From the IMG/VR virus record IMGVR_UViG_3300048924_000223, positions 1 to 29,935 of that record: a DNA stretch of 29,935 nucleotides; one strand, written 5' to 3'. The DNA is from a virus. The stretch's first letter is position 1. The number at the start of each line of letters is the position of its first letter. Position numbers and translations under genes: made by a program. Below, piece after piece: positions 444 to 28,227 of this stretch. Under the pieces are notes generated by a model. The model worked only from the letters and a program-made list of their open reading frames with translations, searched no databases and was not told where the DNA came from.

Positions 444-2441
444 TTATTTACTAGATGACATTCTTTTATTAATAAGTTCAAATAATTTTTCAAACCTACC
501 AAGTTCTTCTTCTAACAGAGGGCATTCCTTTCCATCTTTCATACTATTAAGAAATGTTCTCGCTGGTTTTGCTTTTACAAATGTCTTATTTATTCCAGAA
601 AGATAATTTTCGAATTGTTTCACTACACGAGGAATATGGTCATTTAATGACAATGATTCAACATCAATGTCATAGCTTTTGCAAACATAATTAATATAAT
701 TGACTCTATTGAATAAATCCTCTATATCACATTCATTTCTGGACTCTTCAAGAGCATCAGAGACAAATATTATATTTTTCTTGTTTAGCATCCCCTGCTG
801 GTGTAGTTCTTTTGAAGTTTCTCTGCTCTGTTTCTCGTCATCAAGTAGTACTACCACATTGAGATTTTGAGAAGATAAAAGTGACACCATGTATGAAACC
901 CGCTGAGCACCTCCAGCAGGAGTGATTGTAATTTTATTGTTTAACCCTTTCCGTCCCATTGAGTTCAAATAATCAGAAATTGAACTGAGATACCAAAAAT
1001 CGGTCACTCCTTCTACTATCAAATTACATGTGCCTATAAATAGCGATTGAGCTATATCATATCCCAGGGCCGCTTGTAATGGAAAAAGAGTTGTTGAATC
1101 ACCACTTGGATCATTTGTGACAATAGTTCCTCTTTCCTCATCAATTGAAACAGTCTTCACTGCCGAAATATTTTTGAGGGGCACTAAAAATGGTGAATGC
1201 GTTGTGTAAATTATTTGATTGATGAAATCATTAGATAAGTGACTGAGGAGGTCTGTTTGAGATTTCGCATGTAAATATAATCCCGGCTCGTCTAAGAGAA
1301 TAATGGCATTCTCCGCAGAACCACCCTTAGTGTCAGCGACAAAACTGATGTAGAACGAGAAAAACCATTTGAAGCCACGACTCCTTTCATCGAGGTTGAC
1401 TTCAACGTCGTAGGAGTGACTAGAATCCGATACGTAAGTATCAAAGAAATCACCGTCGACATTGAAACGGATTTTCAATGAACGGTCTTTCCATAACCGC
1501 TTTATTTCACTGGTTACAACAGCGCCACTACGGTTAACCAGTTGATTTCGTATCTCAGAATTTGCCCTATGCTCAATTAACTCTGCAGGTTTGATTCCGG
1601 CAACTTTACATAATTTTTCAAAATTGATATCGGCAGGAGTTTTTTGATTATTAGCTTGTCTCTGCAAATAAGAAGCCATATTGTGATGGCCATTTATCTC
1701 TGGATATTCGTCTACCAGTACAAATATGGGCATAGTTTTAAAAATCCACTCTTTTGCAAGCTTGCATTTTTCGGAATCATTGAGTACTTCAGAAACTTTA
1801 TTATCAATTAATAACAACGAATCCTCAAGTTCATCCTTCAGTTCGATATTATTTTTCAGAAGAAGCTTTCTAAGCTCTTGTGGTTTTTCTTTAACATTGA
1901 CTGCCCACTGCTGATAACTTTCTGAAGGAGAACCAATACTCTCACAAAGAGACTTAATAATCGCAAAGTCAGCATTATTTTGTTCTGCACTACGCTCTGC
2001 CCCCTCAAAAAAAACCTCACATTGAGTTAATATTTTCTTTAGATCTTTCTGTATTCTTGGTGTGTCAATTTCAAAATCATCTAACTCGTGAAACTCGATA
2101 TTCCTATCGTTATAGCTACGATTAATAGATACTGTAGTTACATTTTTTGCGCGAGGATACAATTTCGAAAGCTGAGAACACTCATTAGCCGTTAAAGTCC
2201 AATTACTCTCTACGACAGGTGTATTAGGAGTGCAGTCATCAAGCAGACGATTTCGGGGGAAGTCTTTTACTTTATTTAGCTCTCCAAAACCCTCTGCCGG
2301 ATTCAAACTTTTTAGTGCTAACAATAAATTAGTTTTACCACTTTCATTCCTACCAAGAATTGCAGTTAATCTGTCTATAGTAATGAGGCCACTATCAAAG
2401 ACTGATCTAAAATTTTTTACGCGAAAAGAGATAAGTTGCAT
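444..2441 (-). CDS. OLD-family ATP-dependent endonuclease (ABC ATPase + TOPRIM)
   Basis: The 665-residue protein has an N-terminal ABC/SMC-type ATPase with Walker A GRNESGKT (30-37). A long helical insert follows, then a signature-like DERSRG (351-356), Walker B IILLDEPGLYLH (380-391) and an H-loop TTHSPFL (413-419). The C-terminal TOPRIM domain has LIVEGVTD (474-481, metal-binding Glu), VVLLDDEK (529-536) and a late acidic CDIEDLF (571-577). This is the layout of P2 Old and of GajA. P2 Old is a nuclease that blocks lambda and kills recBC hosts. Here the gene is at the ogr/att end, not at the P2 old position. It starts at ATG 2441 with AAGGA six bases upstream, overlapping the stop of the partner gene, so the two are co-transcribed. 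An anti-phage role is inferred; the family call is firm. Confidence 0.9.
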   Translation of the reverse strand: MQLISFRVKNFRSVFDSGLITIDRLTAILGRNESGKTNLLLALKSLNPAEGFGELNKVKDFPRNRLLDDCTPNTPVVESNWTLTANECSQLSKLYPRAKNVTTVSINRSYNDRNIEFHELDDFEIDTPRIQKDLKKILTQCEVFFEGAERSAEQNNADFAIIKSLCESIGSPSESYQQWAVNVKEKPQELRKLLLKNNIELKDELEDSLLLIDNKVSEVLNDSEKCKLAKEWIFKTMPIFVLVDEYPEINGHHNMASYLQRQANNQKTPADINFEKLCKVAGIKPAELIEHRANSEIRNQLVNRSGAVVTSEIKRLWKDRSLKIRFNVDGDFFDTYVSDSSHSYDVEVNLDERSRGFKWFFSFYISFVADTKGGSAENAIILLDEPGLYLHAKSQTDLLSHLSNDFINQIIYTTHSPFLVPLKNISAVKTVSIDEERGTIVTNDPSGDSTTLFPLQAALGYDIAQSLFIGTCNLIVEGVTDFWYLSSISDYLNSMGRKGLNNKITITPAGGAQRVSYMVSLLSSQNLNVVVLLDDEKQSRETSKELHQQGMLNKKNIIFVSDALEESRNECDIEDLFNRVNYINYVCKSYDIDVESLSLNDHIPRVVKQFENYLSGINKTFVKAKPARTFLNSMKDGKECPLLEEELGRFEKLFELINKRMSSSK

Positions 2442-12439: not shown

Positions 12440-12790
12440 TTAACTCAGTGGAATAGTGAGTGAAAAGGGCTGCGCAGACATCGAGCGCGTCCCGGTGATA
12501 TCGACATACAGCGCGCCGTCAGCCTCGCCGCGTTCAAAGGTGATGGTCGACAGACTGACGCGCGGCTCCCATTTCTGGATCGCCGAGTAGCACGCGGCCA
12601 TAATCTGCAGGCGCAGCGCCGGGGTCTGCGGCTGGTCAATCAGCGCCGACAGCAGCGAGCCGTATTCACGGCGCATCACCCGCGAGCCAACCGGCGTGAC
12701 CAGAATGTCGCGCACGCTTTGCCTGATATGGTCGGCCTCAGAAATCGCAAGCCCGGTCTGGCTGTTCATTCCCAGATAACGCACCGTCAT
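12440..12790 (-). CDS. W: gpW, baseplate wedge protein (gp25/lysozyme-like family)
   Basis: The 116-residue product is close to P2 gpW (115) and carries the gp25-family core SVRDILVTPVGSRVMRREYG and LSALIDQPQTP. It is the inner baseplate wedge that nucleates the sheath. It is a structural relative of T4 gp25 and has no lysozyme activity as far as known. The start ATG overlaps the V stop (ATGA), so its translation may depend on ribosomes finishing V. The V frameshift could therefore lower W expression. Confidence 0.95.
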   Translation of the reverse strand: MTVRYLGMNSQTGLAISEADHIRQSVRDILVTPVGSRVMRREYGSLLSALIDQPQTPALRLQIMAACYSAIQKWEPRVSLSTITFERGEADGALYVDITGTRSMSAQPFSLTIPLS

Positions 12791-13427
12791 TTTGTGCCCA
12801 CCGTTCTGTCATCACCGCGCTTCACCCCGCCGTGGTCGTGGTCATCCACCTGCACGCCGTTAGAGGTCAGTTTCCCGCCGCTGTGCTCGATATTCCCTTT
12901 CATCGTCCCGCCCTTCTGCACTTCGAGTGAGCCGGTGATGAGCTTGTTAGTGCACACCACCTCGGGGGTATCGAGCGTGATGCGGGTTTCGGCTTTCACC
13001 AGCACAAGTGGCCGGTGGCGGTAATAGATTCCGACGCGGTGACGTCAGCGGTTTTAATCCCGGACACGGTGAGCGCCCCGCTTTCGGGCTCGTATTCGAT
13101 GACCGCCCCGTCAGGAAAGGTAATGTGAAGCGCATCCGGCGAGGCAGACGGCGCGGGGTGGTCATCCGAGAAAATGGAGGGCAGCACAAACGCGGTGTCG
13201 AGTTCGCCACCGATGGCAAGAATCAGCACCTGCTCACCAACGGATGGAGCCCACCACACCCGCGAACGACCGGCGCGGGAGGTCAGCCAGTTAAGCCAGG
13301 TGGTTTGCATCCCGCCGGTCTGGACACGACAAAGACCCTCAACATGGTCGACGTCGGTCACGATGCCAGTGCGGATAAGGTTGCGGATCGCACGGGCGAT
13401 GTCCTGCAGAGAATTTAAATTATTCAT
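12787..13427 (-). pseudogene. V: gpV baseplate spike, one-base deletion
   Basis: Residues 1-139 from ATG 13427 match P2 gpV (LNWLTSRAGRSRVWWAPSVG, GELDTAFVLP, AVIEYEPESGALTVSG). The frame then goes off at ITATGHLCW and stops at about 13003. The matching C-terminus (VKAETRITLDTPEVVCTNKL to VDDHDHGG) continues in another frame to 12787. Total length, 641 bases, is one short of a whole number of codons. Comparison with P2 places the missing base near 13012 (GG where GTG is expected). gpV is the trimeric membrane-piercing spike; the lost part is the beta-helix with the HxH iron-binding tip (HDH is still encoded). Confidence 0.92.
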
Positions 13428-13555: not shown

Positions 13556-15352
13556 TCAAAATAAATTGATGTTGTCGTTACTGGTGAGGGCTGAGGATAT
13601 TTTCTTCAAACACCATAATAAAAAGGCGGTAAGTATAGCCCCAACACCACCCAATATAATCGTATTATCACTTGAAGATTCCCATAGGGTTTTATTTTGA
13701 CGGAGATTATTTTTATAAAAAAGGCTGGCCCTGCCATTAATCACTAGGTTATTTCCAGATGATATTGACGCGTAAATGTCATCACCCGTAACCATTAAAT
13801 TATCCATTTTGCTTGAATCTACGCTTTTCCCATCAAAAGATAGTTTATCGAAAGAATGTAGAATAAAACCATCAATGTAACCATCTTCAACATAGTCACT
13901 TAGGAATTTGACTTGGGGAACATCTGAAGCCTGAAAGTGAAGAACCCCACCACTTATATCAATTCCATTACTGGAGTGATTTACAATAGAGAAGTATTCA
14001 TCTTTGCTTTCGGGTTCTATTTTCATCAATAAGCCGACATAAACAGACTCACCTGCCTCTATAGTAATGTTTTTTTCGTGGAAATCAAACGGGGAAACCT
14101 TACAAACAAGAGGCTTATCCTGGTTGCTGGAACGCAACCTTTCAGATTTCAAAGTGATAACTTTTTCCTCCCCATTAATATTAAATTCATAGTTTATATT
14201 TCTTTTAACCTGTCCTTCACTGAATTCAATAACTGGATTACCTATAAAAAAACCGCCATCTGCATCTGAAGGATAATAAGTAATTGTTCCTTTATTGACT
14301 TTAGTAATCTCATACATATTATTTTTATTGTTTTTTACATCAAACGTATTGACAATTCCATTGCTACTTTTTACATATCCGGAATTGTCATTTAAGCGAA
14401 TCATACTCAATGATTCAGATAGTTTAAGGTGAAACTTTTTTACATTTTTAAAAATCAGGGGTTTATATGAGCGGACATTTATTGCATGTTCATCCAAGCA
14501 GTTAAGAAGAGGGTACAAGCTTATCTTGTAGGATTTATCATCATTAAAATGAGATCTTATTGAATTTACTCCTCCAGAAATTTCAAATCCCTTTTTTATC
14601 TCGACAGGATTTCCCATCAAAGAGAACAAAGTACGCTTTTCCCTAACTACTTTTTTGTTGATATCGGACTTTTTATTAATTATGAAATAATCGCCTGAAA
14701 ATTGCTGTGAAGTTGAAACTGAAAAATTTATACTGGTAGGCCTATAAAAATAGCAAACCGTGTAATACCCAACAATAAGAACCATAAAGCTAACCAGGGA
14801 GTAACACACATAAGTTGCCATAAAACACAAAACATTATTCATTCCACTTAATTCAAATAGCTTTTTCTTAATATAAAAAAGCATAATAACAAAAGCAGCA
14901 ATGAAAGGAGAACCAATAATATTTGCCATAATGCATTCAACGGCAGTTTTTAATGTTAATGAATTTGTGAAGAAATAAAAAACCAAGTCTGTAGTTGTCA
15001 ACGCGATCACAGAACTAACTATGCAGACAATGAAAATATGAATGGCAACTTGAAAAAACAGTGCGCAGAAGACTATAAAGAATGCAGCCAAAAAATTATA
15101 GTTACTGGTTATGGAATAAGCCCCCGACAAATAACCATTTAACGTGGGGATTTTTGCTACAGCATCCTCAAAGGCACTACCATAAAGCGTTGAACTATCA
15201 CTACCAATAAATTTAAATAAATAGTATTGTATATCAGAACCAACAGAGAGTAATGTCCAAACACAAACAAATAAGAAGAAAAAGTCCAAATAGAATGACT
15301 TTGTTCTAAAGTTAATATTGCACCCACTTAGAAAATTCATATTCATAGCCAT
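13556..15352 (-). CDS. Unrecognised membrane protein inserted between S and V
   Basis: From ATG 15352 the product is about 598 residues; GTG 15361 is an alternative start. I do not recognise the family. Hydrophobic segments lie near residues 21-38, 88-130 (probably two helices), 143-162 and 175-203, and a last one near 566-586. Between them is a soluble region of about 360 residues (205-565), rich in Asn, Ser, Asp and Lys and apparently beta-rich, followed by a short lysine-containing tail. The gene is far richer in A+T than its neighbours and separate from the flanking operons, so it is a moron acquired by transfer. P2 also has an extra gene (orf30) at this place. A role in lysogenic conversion or superinfection exclusion is inferred from position and topology only. 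Confidence 0.8.
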   Translation of the reverse strand: MAMNMNFLSGCNINFRTKSFYLDFFFLFVCVWTLLSVGSDIQYYLFKFIGSDSSTLYGSAFEDAVAKIPTLNGYLSGAYSITSNYNFLAAFFIVFCALFFQVAIHIFIVCIVSSVIALTTTDLVFYFFTNSLTLKTAVECIMANIIGSPFIAAFVIMLFYIKKKLFELSGMNNVLCFMATYVCYSLVSFMVLIVGYYTVCYFYRPTSINFSVSTSQQFSGDYFIINKKSDINKKVVREKRTLFSLMGNPVEIKKGFEISGGVNSIRSHFNDDKSYKISLYPLLNCLDEHAINVRSYKPLIFKNVKKFHLKLSESLSMIRLNDNSGYVKSSNGIVNTFDVKNNKNNMYEITKVNKGTITYYPSDADGGFFIGNPVIEFSEGQVKRNINYEFNINGEEKVITLKSERLRSSNQDKPLVCKVSPFDFHEKNITIEAGESVYVGLLMKIEPESKDEYFSIVNHSSNGIDISGGVLHFQASDVPQVKFLSDYVEDGYIDGFILHSFDKLSFDGKSVDSSKMDNLMVTGDDIYASISSGNNLVINGRASLFYKNNLRQNKTLWESSSDNTIILGGVGAILTAFLLWCLKKISSALTSNDNINLF

Positions 15353-15395
15353 TTCAATCACATTCCATCATGAAAATACCACCTAAACCATAGCC

Positions 15396-15424
15396 ATTAT
15401 ATTAAATGGCAATAAAAACACTTA
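15396..15424 (-). promoter_or_regulatory. Possible promoter of the membrane-protein moron
   Basis: On the minus strand a perfect TATAAT (15396-15401) lies about 44 bases upstream of the start. The -35 place (15419-15424, TAAGTG) is poor. An activator or an alternative -35 would be needed for strong expression. Confidence 0.35.
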
Positions 15425-15494
15425 AATTAACCTTTATCAATTCTTAAAATCACTTAACTTTTAATATTGACTAATGAAAGGTGTATAAAAGCAG

Positions 15495-15605
15495 CCAGAG
15501 CCAAATGTTTTACACCCCCTTAATTTTAAAGCAATCCTTATCAAGGACAGTCCAACTATAAAGATAATGCAATATAATGATGTCCTTGGATAAACTCAGC
15601 TCTGG
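15495..15605. repeat. Nested inverted repeats upstream of the moron
   Basis: TTATCAAGGACA (15538-15549) pairs with TGTCCTTGGATAA (15581-15593) with a single bulged base, around a 31-base AT-rich loop. Outside it CCAGAGC (15495-15501) pairs with GCTCTGG (15599-15605). The loop holds a TATAAT on the plus strand (15573-15578). The rest of the 341-base gap between the moron and S shows no gene that I can support. Confidence 0.6.
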
Positions 15606-15693
15606 AAAAGTCATCACATATTGAAACTGTTAAATACCAACATAAACTTCTTTTTTTTGATTATTCTTTAAAGTAAATCACGCAACAATCGTT

Positions 15694-16140
15694 TTAGTTC
15701 AGAGAGTTAAGAATCAACTGCTCAATCAGCATTTTATCATCTCCATTGAATCCAACAAGCGGTCGGGCTTCATACTTTACGAGTTTAGTCTCTCGGTTAG
15801 GCTTATCCTTCAACCCGAACTGATGAACACGCGCTATGCGTTGCACCTTGCCGGTAAACTCCACCACAGCCGCATCACTGCGGCCACTGGCTTTCATATA
15901 ACGAGCAGTGCGCAGCTTCTGAAACATCGCGCGCTTGATTCGCCCCGACTTTGCCCTGAGCGGCTGGCGCTTCCTTGCCTGATACGGTGTGCCATCAGGC
16001 GCTTTTTGCAGTTTAATCCGTTGCTGTTGCGATTTGCGCAGCTCTTTCGCAATCTCTGCGGCAAGCTTACGCCGCCCCGCCGGTGATATGGCCGCAATCA
16101 GCCCGGCCAGCTTATCGTCAAAGGGCTTTAACTCATTCAT
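15694..16140 (-). CDS. S: gpS, tail completion protein
   Basis: The 148-residue product is close to P2 gpS (150) and to Mu G-like tail-completion proteins: DDKLAGLIAAISPAGRRKLA, basic PDGTPYQARKRQPLRAKSG, then IARVHQFGLKD. It completes the tail after tube polymerisation, probably at the head-proximal end. Its start overlaps the R stop by eight bases. It is the last gene of the leftward O-to-S late operon; the moron follows after 341 bases. Confidence 0.93.
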   Translation of the reverse strand: MNELKPFDDKLAGLIAAISPAGRRKLAAEIAKELRKSQQQRIKLQKAPDGTPYQARKRQPLRAKSGRIKRAMFQKLRTARYMKASGRSDAAVVEFTGKVQRIARVHQFGLKDKPNRETKLVKYEARPLVGFNGDDKMLIEQLILNSLN

Positions 16141-24565: not shown

Positions 24566-24711
24566 GTGGTCTAACATTGTGAGCTATTTGCTTTTTTTTG
24601 CATGCATTTTGATGCACACTTGCCAAGTTTTCACGGAATCATCCGCAAAAATTTTGTAGTCCTGCACGCCCCTGTTATTAATTTTAGAAGTTGCTTAAAA
24701 AAGGAAAATTT

Positions 24712-26136
24712 ATGGCATCGCCAAACGTTAAAATCAAAGCTTTCCCAGCCAAACGTTTTTTTGTAGAAATGCTAACCCGAGATATTGAGCTGGCTGACTC
24801 AATTTTGGATCTTCTTGATAACTGTCTAGATGGAGTGTTAAGAAAAAACAACTTCACCCCCGAGCAAACATTCGGAAAATCAGATGTTTACAAAGGATAC
24901 CATGCTCATATTGAATTTGACGAAAACGGTTTTAAGATTACCGATAACTGTGGCGGCATACCAGGAAAACTTGCCGAAAATTATGCCTTTAGGCTAGGAA
25001 GACCTTCAGAGAGAGAGGCAGAAGATTTGCCAACGATCGGGGTGTATGGGATAGGCATGAAGCGCGCAATTTTCAAGATGGGGACGTCCGCTAGAATATT
25101 AAGTAAAACTGACCATGAACAATTCAGTGTTAATATATCCCCCGAATGGATGGAAAACGATGACGATTGGGCGTTAGAATTAGAGAGAAGCAATGTCGAC
25201 CTCAAAGAAACAGGTGTAAGCATCAATATCATTAATTTGAGAAAAGACATCAAGGCTTCACTTACAAAGGATCGTGGTTTCGAAGCTGACCTAATCAACA
25301 TTATCGCGAATCACTATAGTCTAATAATAAAGAAAGGGTTTGAAGTAGTAATAAATGGGACAGCTGTTAAGCCTAATAGTACTAATTTGATTTTTGATGA
25401 ATCCTCGATTAAAGATAATACTGACGGCATTGCACCTTACGTATATAAAAATGAGTCAAACGGCGTATCAATAAAAGTCGCTGTTGGATTTTACCGCAAC
25501 TTGCCAAGTGAAGAAGAAGAGGAAAATCTTTTATCTGGACGTTCCACCACTGAGAAAGCCGGTTGGACAATTATATGTAATGACCGCGTAGTATTGCATG
25601 CAGATAAATCGAAACTAACTGGCTGGGGTGAAGCTGGGCTTCCTCAATATCATACGCAGTTCATCGGCATCGCCGGAGTTGTCATATTCACATCATCGAA
25701 TGCAGAACGCTTACCAATTACAACAACTAAAAGAGGTGTTGATGGTAACTCCGAGCTATACCTTTCGACCAAGGATTTCATGAGAGAAGGCCTAAAATTC
25801 TTCACCGACTTTACGAATAAATGGAAAAGTAATGCAGACGAGAGAAGACAAATCGTTAGCACCGCTACCAATATGGTTTCAACCACTGAGACTGATTTTA
25901 CAAAATCAATACCACAAGAGAAATGGTCTACAGTTCGACGCTCAATCGGAGGCCAAGTATTTAAACCTAGATTGCCACTACCTCGTGATACAGACCCTTT
26001 ACGCCAAATAAAATTTAGCCGTAGACATAGCGAGATAAAATTAGTCTCAGAGCTAATTTTTGACGATGCCACGCAGCCACCAACTGAAGTAGGCCAGTTT
26101 TGTTTCGATGAATTTTTGAAAAAGGCTAAACAATGA
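24712..26136 (+). CDS. GHKL (MutL/MORC-like) ATPase of a cargo module
   Basis: From ATG 24712, with AAGGA seven bases upstream, the product is 474 residues. The Bergerat-fold ATP site is clear. The N-box is DLLDNCLD (33-40), with Asp33 where most GHKL proteins have the catalytic Glu. The G1 box is DNCGGI (78-83) and the G2 box GVYGIGMKRAIF (110-121). A transducer-like domain follows, and the conserved-Lys loop appears to be ITTTKRGVDG (336-345). The C-terminal ~100 residues are charged and helical. GHKL ATPases of this kind have been described in prokaryotic restriction-modification neighbourhoods as relatives of eukaryotic MORC. Its stop overlaps the next gene (ATGA), and a C5 methyltransferase lies beyond. 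I infer an ATP-driven clamp in a DNA-modification or defence system. Confidence 0.85.
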   Translation: MASPNVKIKAFPAKRFFVEMLTRDIELADSILDLLDNCLDGVLRKNNFTPEQTFGKSDVYKGYHAHIEFDENGFKITDNCGGIPGKLAENYAFRLGRPSEREAEDLPTIGVYGIGMKRAIFKMGTSARILSKTDHEQFSVNISPEWMENDDDWALELERSNVDLKETGVSINIINLRKDIKASLTKDRGFEADLINIIANHYSLIIKKGFEVVINGTAVKPNSTNLIFDESSIKDNTDGIAPYVYKNESNGVSIKVAVGFYRNLPSEEEEENLLSGRSTTEKAGWTIICNDRVVLHADKSKLTGWGEAGLPQYHTQFIGIAGVVIFTSSNAERLPITTTKRGVDGNSELYLSTKDFMREGLKFFTDFTNKWKSNADERRQIVSTATNMVSTTETDFTKSIPQEKWSTVRRSIGGQVFKPRLPLPRDTDPLRQIKFSRRHSEIKLVSELIFDDATQPPTEVGQFCFDEFLKKAKQ

Positions 26137-27125
26137 GTACTGGCGGAAGCATTCCATACCACTTAAGGCAAAACAAAGCTATTGAAAGGAATCTGTTCAT
26201 GGAATCCTTAAGAAGGCTTAATAACTATACAAACATATCCGAATATGTTTATATTGGATTTGGTGGTCCATTCCTCGAAGATTTCAAACAAGTTCACAAC
26301 TTATTGAAAGTCAATAACATGATTTCAATCGAAGGGGATGAAAATGTACATCGTAGACAACATTTCAATAAACCACTTTCTTGTATAAATTTAGGCATCA
26401 CACCAGAAATGAGTGGTGATTTTATTAATCGTTATAATTTTGACGATAAAACAATAATTTGGTTAGATTATGCGATGCCTTCAGGGTTGAACTCACAGCT
26501 AAATGAGACTGTTAACTTAATCACTAAGCTAAAGCCAAAGGATATTTTTAAGATCACTTTGAATGCTAATCCGGAAGGTCTTGGAAGAGACCCAAATGAG
26601 CGAGATCCTCGACCATACAGATATGGCAAGATAAGTGAGATTTTGACTGAAAACTTTTTACCAACCAATGCTAAAGAGGAAGATGTTGGATTCAAAAAAT
26701 ACCCATATCTACTTGTCAATGCTTTGAAACGAGCTATTGAGCATGGTTTGAAAGGTAGGAATGATATTAGAATCCATCCTTTAACATCTTTCGTTTATAA
26801 AGATGGTCAACAAATGGTAACTTTAACAGCCATTGTTCTTGATAATTCGGATGAAGAAGAGGCTAAATTCATAGACTGTTCAAGGATTAGAAATTGGCCA
26901 TTTTATGACGGGGAATGGCGAGAGCCTAAAAATATAAACGTACCTGTCATGTCCTTAAAAGAGAGAATTCACATTGAATCTCTATTGCCTGAAGCATCTG
27001 TCGATAATATTCATGAAGACTTAGGTTTTTACATTGGCTCCAATTCTTCTGGAGCCAATACAGATCTTAGTAACTTTATCGAATACTATAAGGTCGTTCC
27101 ATGGTATTCAAAGGTTCATTTTTAA
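26133..27125 (+). CDS. Rossmann-fold, methyltransferase-like partner of the GHKL ATPase
   Basis: The 330-residue product starts at ATG 26133, overlapping the ATPase stop by four bases, so the two are translationally coupled. I do not know a named family. Residues 38-50 (YVYIGFGGPFLED) look like motif I of a class I SAM-dependent methyltransferase. An acidic end of the next strand (SIEGDE, 65-70) and IIWLDYAMPSG (108-118) resemble motifs II and IV. The N-terminus is helical (YHLRQNKAIERNLFMESLRR). The C-terminal third is acidic and variable. It could modify DNA or protein, or be a catalytically changed Rossmann domain used for target recognition. No nuclease motif is certain. The last 50 bases overlap the convergent methyltransferase gene. 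Confidence 0.7.
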   Translation: MSTGGSIPYHLRQNKAIERNLFMESLRRLNNYTNISEYVYIGFGGPFLEDFKQVHNLLKVNNMISIEGDENVHRRQHFNKPLSCINLGITPEMSGDFINRYNFDDKTIIWLDYAMPSGLNSQLNETVNLITKLKPKDIFKITLNANPEGLGRDPNERDPRPYRYGKISEILTENFLPTNAKEEDVGFKKYPYLLVNALKRAIEHGLKGRNDIRIHPLTSFVYKDGQQMVTLTAIVLDNSDEEEAKFIDCSRIRNWPFYDGEWREPKNINVPVMSLKERIHIESLLPEASVDNIHEDLGFYIGSNSSGANTDLSNFIEYYKVVPWYSKVHF

Positions 27126-28227
27126 CCTTCACACAATAATCATATAAAGGCAATAGCATAGCCTCAGCGACAATGGGGCTAACGCTATTGCCTATCTGCC
27201 TAAAACTATGCCATTTAGTTGGATGGAACCGGAACCAATCAGGAAATCCTTGCAGTCGCGCAGCTTCACGCGGAGTTATCACTCTAGAATCTGTCGGGTG
27301 AATCGGTCTCACCGCTTGATAACTACCTTTGTCGCTTCCTGTACCTGCTCTTAAGGTTGGGCAAAAGCCATCGGGATTGAGGCGCTGAGATCTCGAAATT
27401 TTATCAGTTTCACCAAATGAAAGTTGACCATATCTTTTAATTATTTCATCATTATGAACTGTACCAAGAAATCCAGAAACTAACCCTTTTTTTAGATTAT
27501 CAATCGACTCAACATCACCTACGTTATTTGGGATATTGCCCCAGAGCCTTTCATAATAGTAACCATTTCTGTCCATTTTAACAGAACGCCAACCCTGCTC
27601 CTCAGTCTGCCATTCTTTTTCAATAGTGGATGGAAGCCCATAAAGTGCGTCTTTGACAAGAGTCGGCTCCATTGTTTTTTTGGGAAAGAAATCAGACTCT
27701 TTTAATTGATAAACTAAATCTTTTCTGAAACCAATGAAAAATATACGAGTTCTCGTTGTTGGAGCACCGTAGTTTGATGCATTAACTTTGATTGGATGTA
27801 ACAAACAGTAGTCATTATTAACTAAGGAAAAGGCTTCCTCTCTTACACCATTGTATTTTTCATTCATGATTCCTGGAACATTTTCAGCCAAAAAACAAAT
27901 TGGTGAAAGTTCGCTTACTAATCTAAAAAAATGTATATATAATTCATTTCTTACATCATCAGCGTTCCCTTTTCCCATAGTACTGAAACCTTGGCAAGGT
28001 GGACCGCCTACAACACAATCAATATTGTTTACGCCACATGCCGACAAAATATCATTTGCCGTAAGCGAGCTAACATCACGTTGTAAATGTGTTGATTTGG
28101 GAAAATTTAACTCATGTGAAAAAATAGCATGTTTATCTATCTCAACTGCTCCAGACAAGTCAAAGCCTGCACGCGCCGCCCCTAAACTTAAACCGCCAAC
28201 GCCAGAGAATAAATCAACTACATTCAT
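27076..28227 (-). CDS. DNA (cytosine-5) methyltransferase
   Basis: The 383-residue product contains all main C5-methyltransferase motifs in order: I DLFSGVGGLSLG (5-16), IV GGPPCQGFS with the catalytic Cys, VI ENVPG, VIII RTRIFFIGFR, IX RLQGFPDWF and X QIGNSVSPIVAEA. The target-recognition region lies between VIII and IX (about 185-290). It transfers a methyl group from SAM to cytosine C5; the target site cannot be read from sequence. It begins directly with motif I, so it has no N-terminal regulator domain. It is transcribed leftward, against the ATPase pair, from its own promoter with an inverted-repeat operator. It probably protects host DNA or supplies the mark read by the partners. Confidence 0.95.
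   Translation of the reverse strand: MNVVDLFSGVGGLSLGAARAGFDLSGAVEIDKHAIFSHELNFPKSTHLQRDVSSLTANDILSACGVNNIDCVVGGPPCQGFSTMGKGNADDVRNELYIHFFRLVSELSPICFLAENVPGIMNEKYNGVREEAFSLVNNDYCLLHPIKVNASNYGAPTTRTRIFFIGFRKDLVYQLKESDFFPKKTMEPTLVKDALYGLPSTIEKEWQTEEQGWRSVKMDRNGYYYERLWGNIPNNVGDVESIDNLKKGLVSGFLGTVHNDEIIKRYGQLSFGETDKISRSQRLNPDGFCPTLRAGTGSDKGSYQAVRPIHPTDSRVITPREAARLQGFPDWFRFHPTKWHSFRQIGNSVSPIVAEAMLLPLYDYCVKVKNEPLNTMERPYSIR

Follow-up and report, generated by a model that had tools for sequence, protein, structure and literature searches.

What does the large AT-rich gene lodged in the S–V gap of a P2-like prophage encode, and what might its product do for the lysogen? The window, a virus record of 29,935 bases analysed over its whole length, has its genes in the order typical of P2-like prophages, and between gpS (15694-16140) and the first frame of gpV (12996-13427) it carries an intact open reading frame of 601 codons counted from a GTG (Table 1). 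The GC content of this gene is about 32% (31–36%), against about 58% (55–63%) in both flanks, and the initial annotation of an AT-rich membrane-protein gene of about 600 residues in the S–V gap is thus borne out. In-frame ATG codons lie at 15352, 15346 and 15340. We number the protein in its 594-residue form because the relative in Escherichia coli A15 (described below) begins at the position aligned to 15340, which appears the likely start from the sequence comparison; the ATGs at 15352 and 15346 are also possible. No promoter above chance was found in the leader (15362..15693). The neighbouring gpV (baseplate spike) is split near 13005 into two frames (12996-13427, then 12787-13005) and its E. 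coli A15 counterpart is intact; the split is due either to disruption of an essential gene or to an error in sequencing.

Table 1. Features of the S–V cargo gene and its borders in the window.
Feature	Position	Strand	Remarks
S–V gene	13556..15361	-	594-601 aa depending on start
N-terminal membrane region, residues 16-200, about five predicted helices	14741..15295	-	hydropathy segment count and comparison with relatives
Large soluble domain, residues 203-558, inferred periplasmic, probably beta-rich	13667..14734	-	
Invariant Cys281 codon, first of conserved pair	14498..14500	-	
Invariant Cys413 codon, second of conserved pair	14102..14104	-	
Motif G-x-A-x(5)-N-x(2)-R-x(3)-T-x-W-E, residues 536-554, directly before last helix	13679..13735	-	
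Predicted C-terminal membrane helix, residues 560-578, then short basic tail	13607..13663	-	
AT-rich leader between S and S–V gene	15362..15693	-	
gpS, upstream border of cargo slot	15694..16140	-	
gpV, downstream border of slot	12787..13427	-	frame broken near 13005

The place itself is already known, because the S–V gap is one of three moron regions described in P2-like phages, and it is indeed where P2 carries orf30, as had been noted at first (PMC2771037, PMC6823313). Around gpS we surveyed 38 bacterial and 80 viral loci, in which 114 S–V gaps could be measured. The gap is short in 24 of the 114 (about 75 bp in most), and the remainder hold cargo of up to about 4.2 kb. The open reading frames of the filled gaps (loci L006-L123) fall into 70 mostly unrelated clusters, largely of 31–41% GC and divided evenly between the strands, many of them of defence type. 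PtuA-, AriA-, GmrSD-, SIR2-, STAND- and PIN-type proteins are among the 25 commonest families listed for 65 cluster representatives, and so is non-defence cargo (GGDEF with MASE4, alkyl sulfatase, a hexapeptide protein and Hcp). Like P2 orf30 and R18C ORF16, the gene studied here is a single AT-rich gene at the gpS–gpV site that is dispensable for the phage cycle (PMC2771037, PMC6823313). The short gaps of 24 loci and the unrelated cargo of the others mark it as a non-essential, variable gene absent from relatives, and it is a moron (lysogenic-conversion gene) in a known slot: an ordinary place for an unusual protein. Unlike its position, the protein has no counterpart in orf30 or elsewhere in the phage collection searched, of which P2 is a part (AF063097; no tblastn match at E ≤ 1).

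Two other regions, A–Q (PMC9122126) and the fun locus (PMC9519451), are presented as P2 defence hotspots in the accessible text of these papers. The S–V gap resembles both in holding hypervariable AT-rich cargo, with many candidate anti-phage genes, amid conserved P2 genes; it differs in being a third site, which the accessible text of the two papers does not treat as a defence hotspot.

The protein belongs to no family represented in Pfam, PHROGs, PADLOC, NCBIfam or PDB sequences, where nothing rose above chance, in agreement with the first impression that it matched no known family. The best profile matches, to SUZ12 (PDB, E 0.25) and to DUF2070, phrog_8224, Lsr2 and LigXa_C (E 0.1–0.8), were dismissed as chance, and remote-homology searching gave no confident match to a transporter or enzyme family. 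No model of PADLOC-DB 2.0.0 matches the protein at E ≤ 10, or its Rhizobium relative at E ≤ 0.01.

Relatives were nevertheless found in three bacteria. Whether the gene occurs at the same site in other prophages had been raised at the outset, and it does in E. coli A15 (an otter strain), where WP_201489199.1 is 52% identical over its full length and lies between a V and an S of its own. This strain is the only one of 5,426 E. coli genomes with a relative in a sensitive DNA search, which reaches only about 65–70% identity, so that the rarity of the family is an estimate. A tblastn search of plasmids gave a sole match, WP_327208007.1 on plasmid pRlX2 of Rhizobium johnstonii (22% identity over 586 aligned positions). 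Both proteins are annotated only as hypothetical; both are full-length relatives with the same topology and the same cysteine pair. A two-sequence profile then recovered a 632-residue protein in the gammaproteobacterial genome G952 (E 2.7e-8), with pairwise tblastn matches to the window protein (weak, E 7e-4) and to the Rhizobium protein (E 4e-5). The four proteins are similar over their full length and share one topology, the G-x-A...W-E motif and a pair of invariant cysteines. No further member was detected in partly overlapping groups of genomes: 392 from the Enterobacter family, 385 from the class of G018, 369 from the class of G014, 297 and 76 near G952, 61 from the genus of an Enterobacter genome and 398 from across the phylum. 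Peptide-pattern, C-terminal and motif scans of IMG/VR yielded no relative (one motif match, L128, was unrelated), and none was found among genome contigs with the window protein, among phage records by tblastn with two family members, or among plasmids with the G952 member. Judged by sequence, the S–V protein belongs to a rare and so far undescribed family of predicted integral inner-membrane proteins.

Comparison of the two prophages indicates that their cargo genes have a different history from their backbones. When the window is compared with E. coli A15, J, W, V, R, K, M, N and the tail tube give dS values of 0.39–0.68. The value is 1.45 in S, which adjoins the slot, and reaches 3.9 (saturated) in the cargo gene, with a dN of 0.37. 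The far greater divergence of the cargo copies suggests separate arrivals or exchange at the slot boundary; the two copies probably reached the same slot separately, with boundary exchange as the other suggested course. For the cargo gene, pN (0.29) is well below pS (0.75), and therefore selection acts on the protein. Together with the 52% identical full-length protein in the same slot elsewhere, this makes the gene more than a chance open reading frame.

Hydropathy gives all four members a basic N-terminus, a helix-rich stretch of the first ~200 residues, a soluble stretch of 360–395 residues (~360 in the window protein) and a single final helix with a basic tail. The soluble domain of ~360 residues and the final membrane helix of the initial annotation were thus recovered. 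Its count of about five N-terminal segments held in part: the N-terminus is membrane-rich and five segments are seen in the 52% identical relative, whereas the cut-off used separates four in the window protein. The tail that follows the last helix (KKISSALTSNDNINLF) and a KKK loop before the last N-terminal helix would both be cytoplasmic by the positive-inside rule, which places the large domain in the periplasm. A periplasmic domain of ~360 residues with a short cytoplasmic C-terminus is well supported as a prediction from hydropathy and charge. The stretches left in the cytoplasm are short (about 16 residues in the window protein, up to about 29 in relatives), too short to accommodate an enzyme or a signalling domain inside the cell.

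Three members have exactly two cysteines in the domain and the G952 protein has four; C281 and C413 align in all four; an invariant pair and even counts are compatible with a predicted disulfide in the oxidizing periplasm. The remaining invariant residues of the domain are mainly glycines and those of the G-x-A-x(5)-N-x(2)-R-x(3)-T-x-W-E motif, and in the four-member alignment the domain shows neither an invariant histidine nor a catalytic-type cluster. Conserved polar residues (D118 and N140) lie inside the multi-helix membrane part. A beta-rich fold, as proposed at first, is plausible and weakly supported: single-sequence AlphaFold models, of low pLDDT (34.8 for the whole protein, 32.6 for the domain), have strands only in the domain, with almost no helix there, which is a hint of such a fold.

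The surroundings of the copies differ. In Rhizobium, the gene has Xre/RES genes on one side and an HTH/PIN pair on the other (toxin–antitoxin type) and lies about 6 kb from a HerA-type ATPase gene preceded by a SIR2 gene; SIR2 and HerA form a known anti-phage pair. Near this copy, a protease-like protein with an LmuA match (1.1e-9) and an uncharacterised 260-aa protein (L002:10187-11825) perhaps constitute a two-gene defence system in their own right. Around the G952 copy the GC content is 54%, against 63% in the flanking sequence. IS remnants lie next to this copy, as does a gene for a filamentous-haemagglutinin-type protein with a deaminase-type C-terminus; no recognised defence island was found around it. 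Upstream (L126:9911-12575, minus strand) stand three consecutive genes, for a YydG-epimerase-like radical SAM protein, a protein of 354 aa whose N-terminus is signal-like and a membrane protein with a PH domain. We do not rely on an operon of these genes with the G952 copy because an IS3-type orfA remnant lies between.

The prophage of the window has cargo elsewhere too. Beyond ogr, an OLD/Gabija-like ATPase–TOPRIM protein of 665 aa is encoded at 444-2441 (minus strand), beside a 169-aa open reading frame with no Pfam or PADLOC match; this region (444-2960) is a further cargo site. The A–Q region (24691-28227) holds an HATPase_c_3 protein and a PF20553 (Methyltransf_35) protein, neither with a PADLOC match, and a C5 DNA methyltransferase on the opposite strand, and is possibly an undescribed modification-linked defence system.

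On the strength of the slot and this genomic company, we consider an anti-phage role for the S–V protein somewhat probable. It is supported by the hypervariable slot with its defence-type families and by the relative in the same E. coli A15 slot, by the SIR2–HerA and toxin–antitoxin type genes near the Rhizobium copy, and by the OLD/Gabija-like protein and methyltransferase cassette in the same prophage. As all soluble mass is predicted to lie outside the cytoplasm, the protein would have to act in the periplasm or membrane. The predicted topology alone points to genome entry as the step attacked, because every soluble part appears periplasmic and there is no sign of an enzyme. About five N-terminal helices would anchor the ~360-residue, probably disulfide-bonded domain in the periplasm, and the last helix would return the short C-terminus to the cytoplasm; the domain might then meet the incoming DNA-delivery apparatus and stop passage of the genome across the inner membrane. 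That the moron encodes such a disulfide-bonded periplasmic-domain protein, protecting the lysogen from phages at genome entry, is our preferred reading, which we hold as quite possible and short of probable.

The nearest precedent is SieA of P22, an inner-membrane prophage protein of 162–164 residues with three to four predicted helices and a conserved FxRYPxEAxxFNK motif, which is proposed to disturb the conduit for DNA delivery in the periplasm (PMC10883804). The S–V protein resembles it as a prophage-encoded, predicted inner-membrane protein without a signal peptide that may act on the periplasmic step of DNA delivery (PMC10883804). Unlike SieA, it has 594 residues, about six predicted helices and a 360-residue predicted periplasmic domain; its translation contains no RYP and it has no PHROG match above chance. 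By analogy, the protein may work like SieA, though by sequence, size, topology and motif it is not SieA. The far smaller size and unrelatedness of SieA count against exclusion at entry, as do the S–V cargo that is not defence-like, the position of the G952 copy and the lack of a recognizable promoter.

Some of the same observations bear on other readings. The protein might change or maintain the envelope (surface, stress tolerance, colonisation) and so help the lysogen without acting on phages. Its membrane and periplasmic topology, the plainly non-defence cargo of other S–V gaps (GGDEF/MASE4, alkyl sulfatase, hexapeptide protein) and the haemagglutinin-type neighbour of the G952 copy agree with this; the defence-like company of the Rhizobium copy, the wealth of defence-type families in the slot and the rarity and mobility of the family, unlike stable fitness genes, do not, and we regard such a role as unlikely, if a serious contender. 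Abortive infection seems rather unlikely: here the periplasmic domain would sense entry or envelope damage and the helices would permeabilise the inner membrane, killing the infected cell. The joining of a large predicted periplasmic domain to a multi-helix part with conserved D118 and N140 would suit such a mechanism, and other killing-type defence families occur in the slot, but PADLOC contains no pore-forming defence effector to which the protein is similar.

That the gene is chance cargo for an ordinary transporter or envelope enzyme is very improbable, since despite several membrane helices the protein matches no family of either kind, its domain offers no invariant histidine or catalytic-type cluster and the gene is never a core gene among the genomes sampled. 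Entry exclusion directed at conjugative plasmids or other mobile elements instead of phages would fit the inner-membrane location and the conjugative plasmid that carries the Rhizobium copy; with two of the four copies in prophages and no conjugation genes adjoining any copy in the stretches covered, we consider it highly unlikely.

What is new here is the cargo family; the P2 moron region that holds it was already known. Returning to action against phages, and more guardedly for the family as a whole, its members may be rare membrane-anchored periplasmic proteins, found both in prophages of the P2 type and in a defence island on a rhizobial plasmid, which either intercept incoming genomes in the periplasm or kill the cell upon sensing entry there. 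Since the gene is a single open frame and easily cloned, its role is directly testable. The S–V gap is less studied than the A–Q and fun loci, yet it carries many candidate defence genes and deserves to be surveyed systematically as a third defence hotspot of P2. If protective, this protein would represent a family absent from current defence catalogues, and its site of action would be outside the cytoplasm, a location for which few anti-phage proteins are known.
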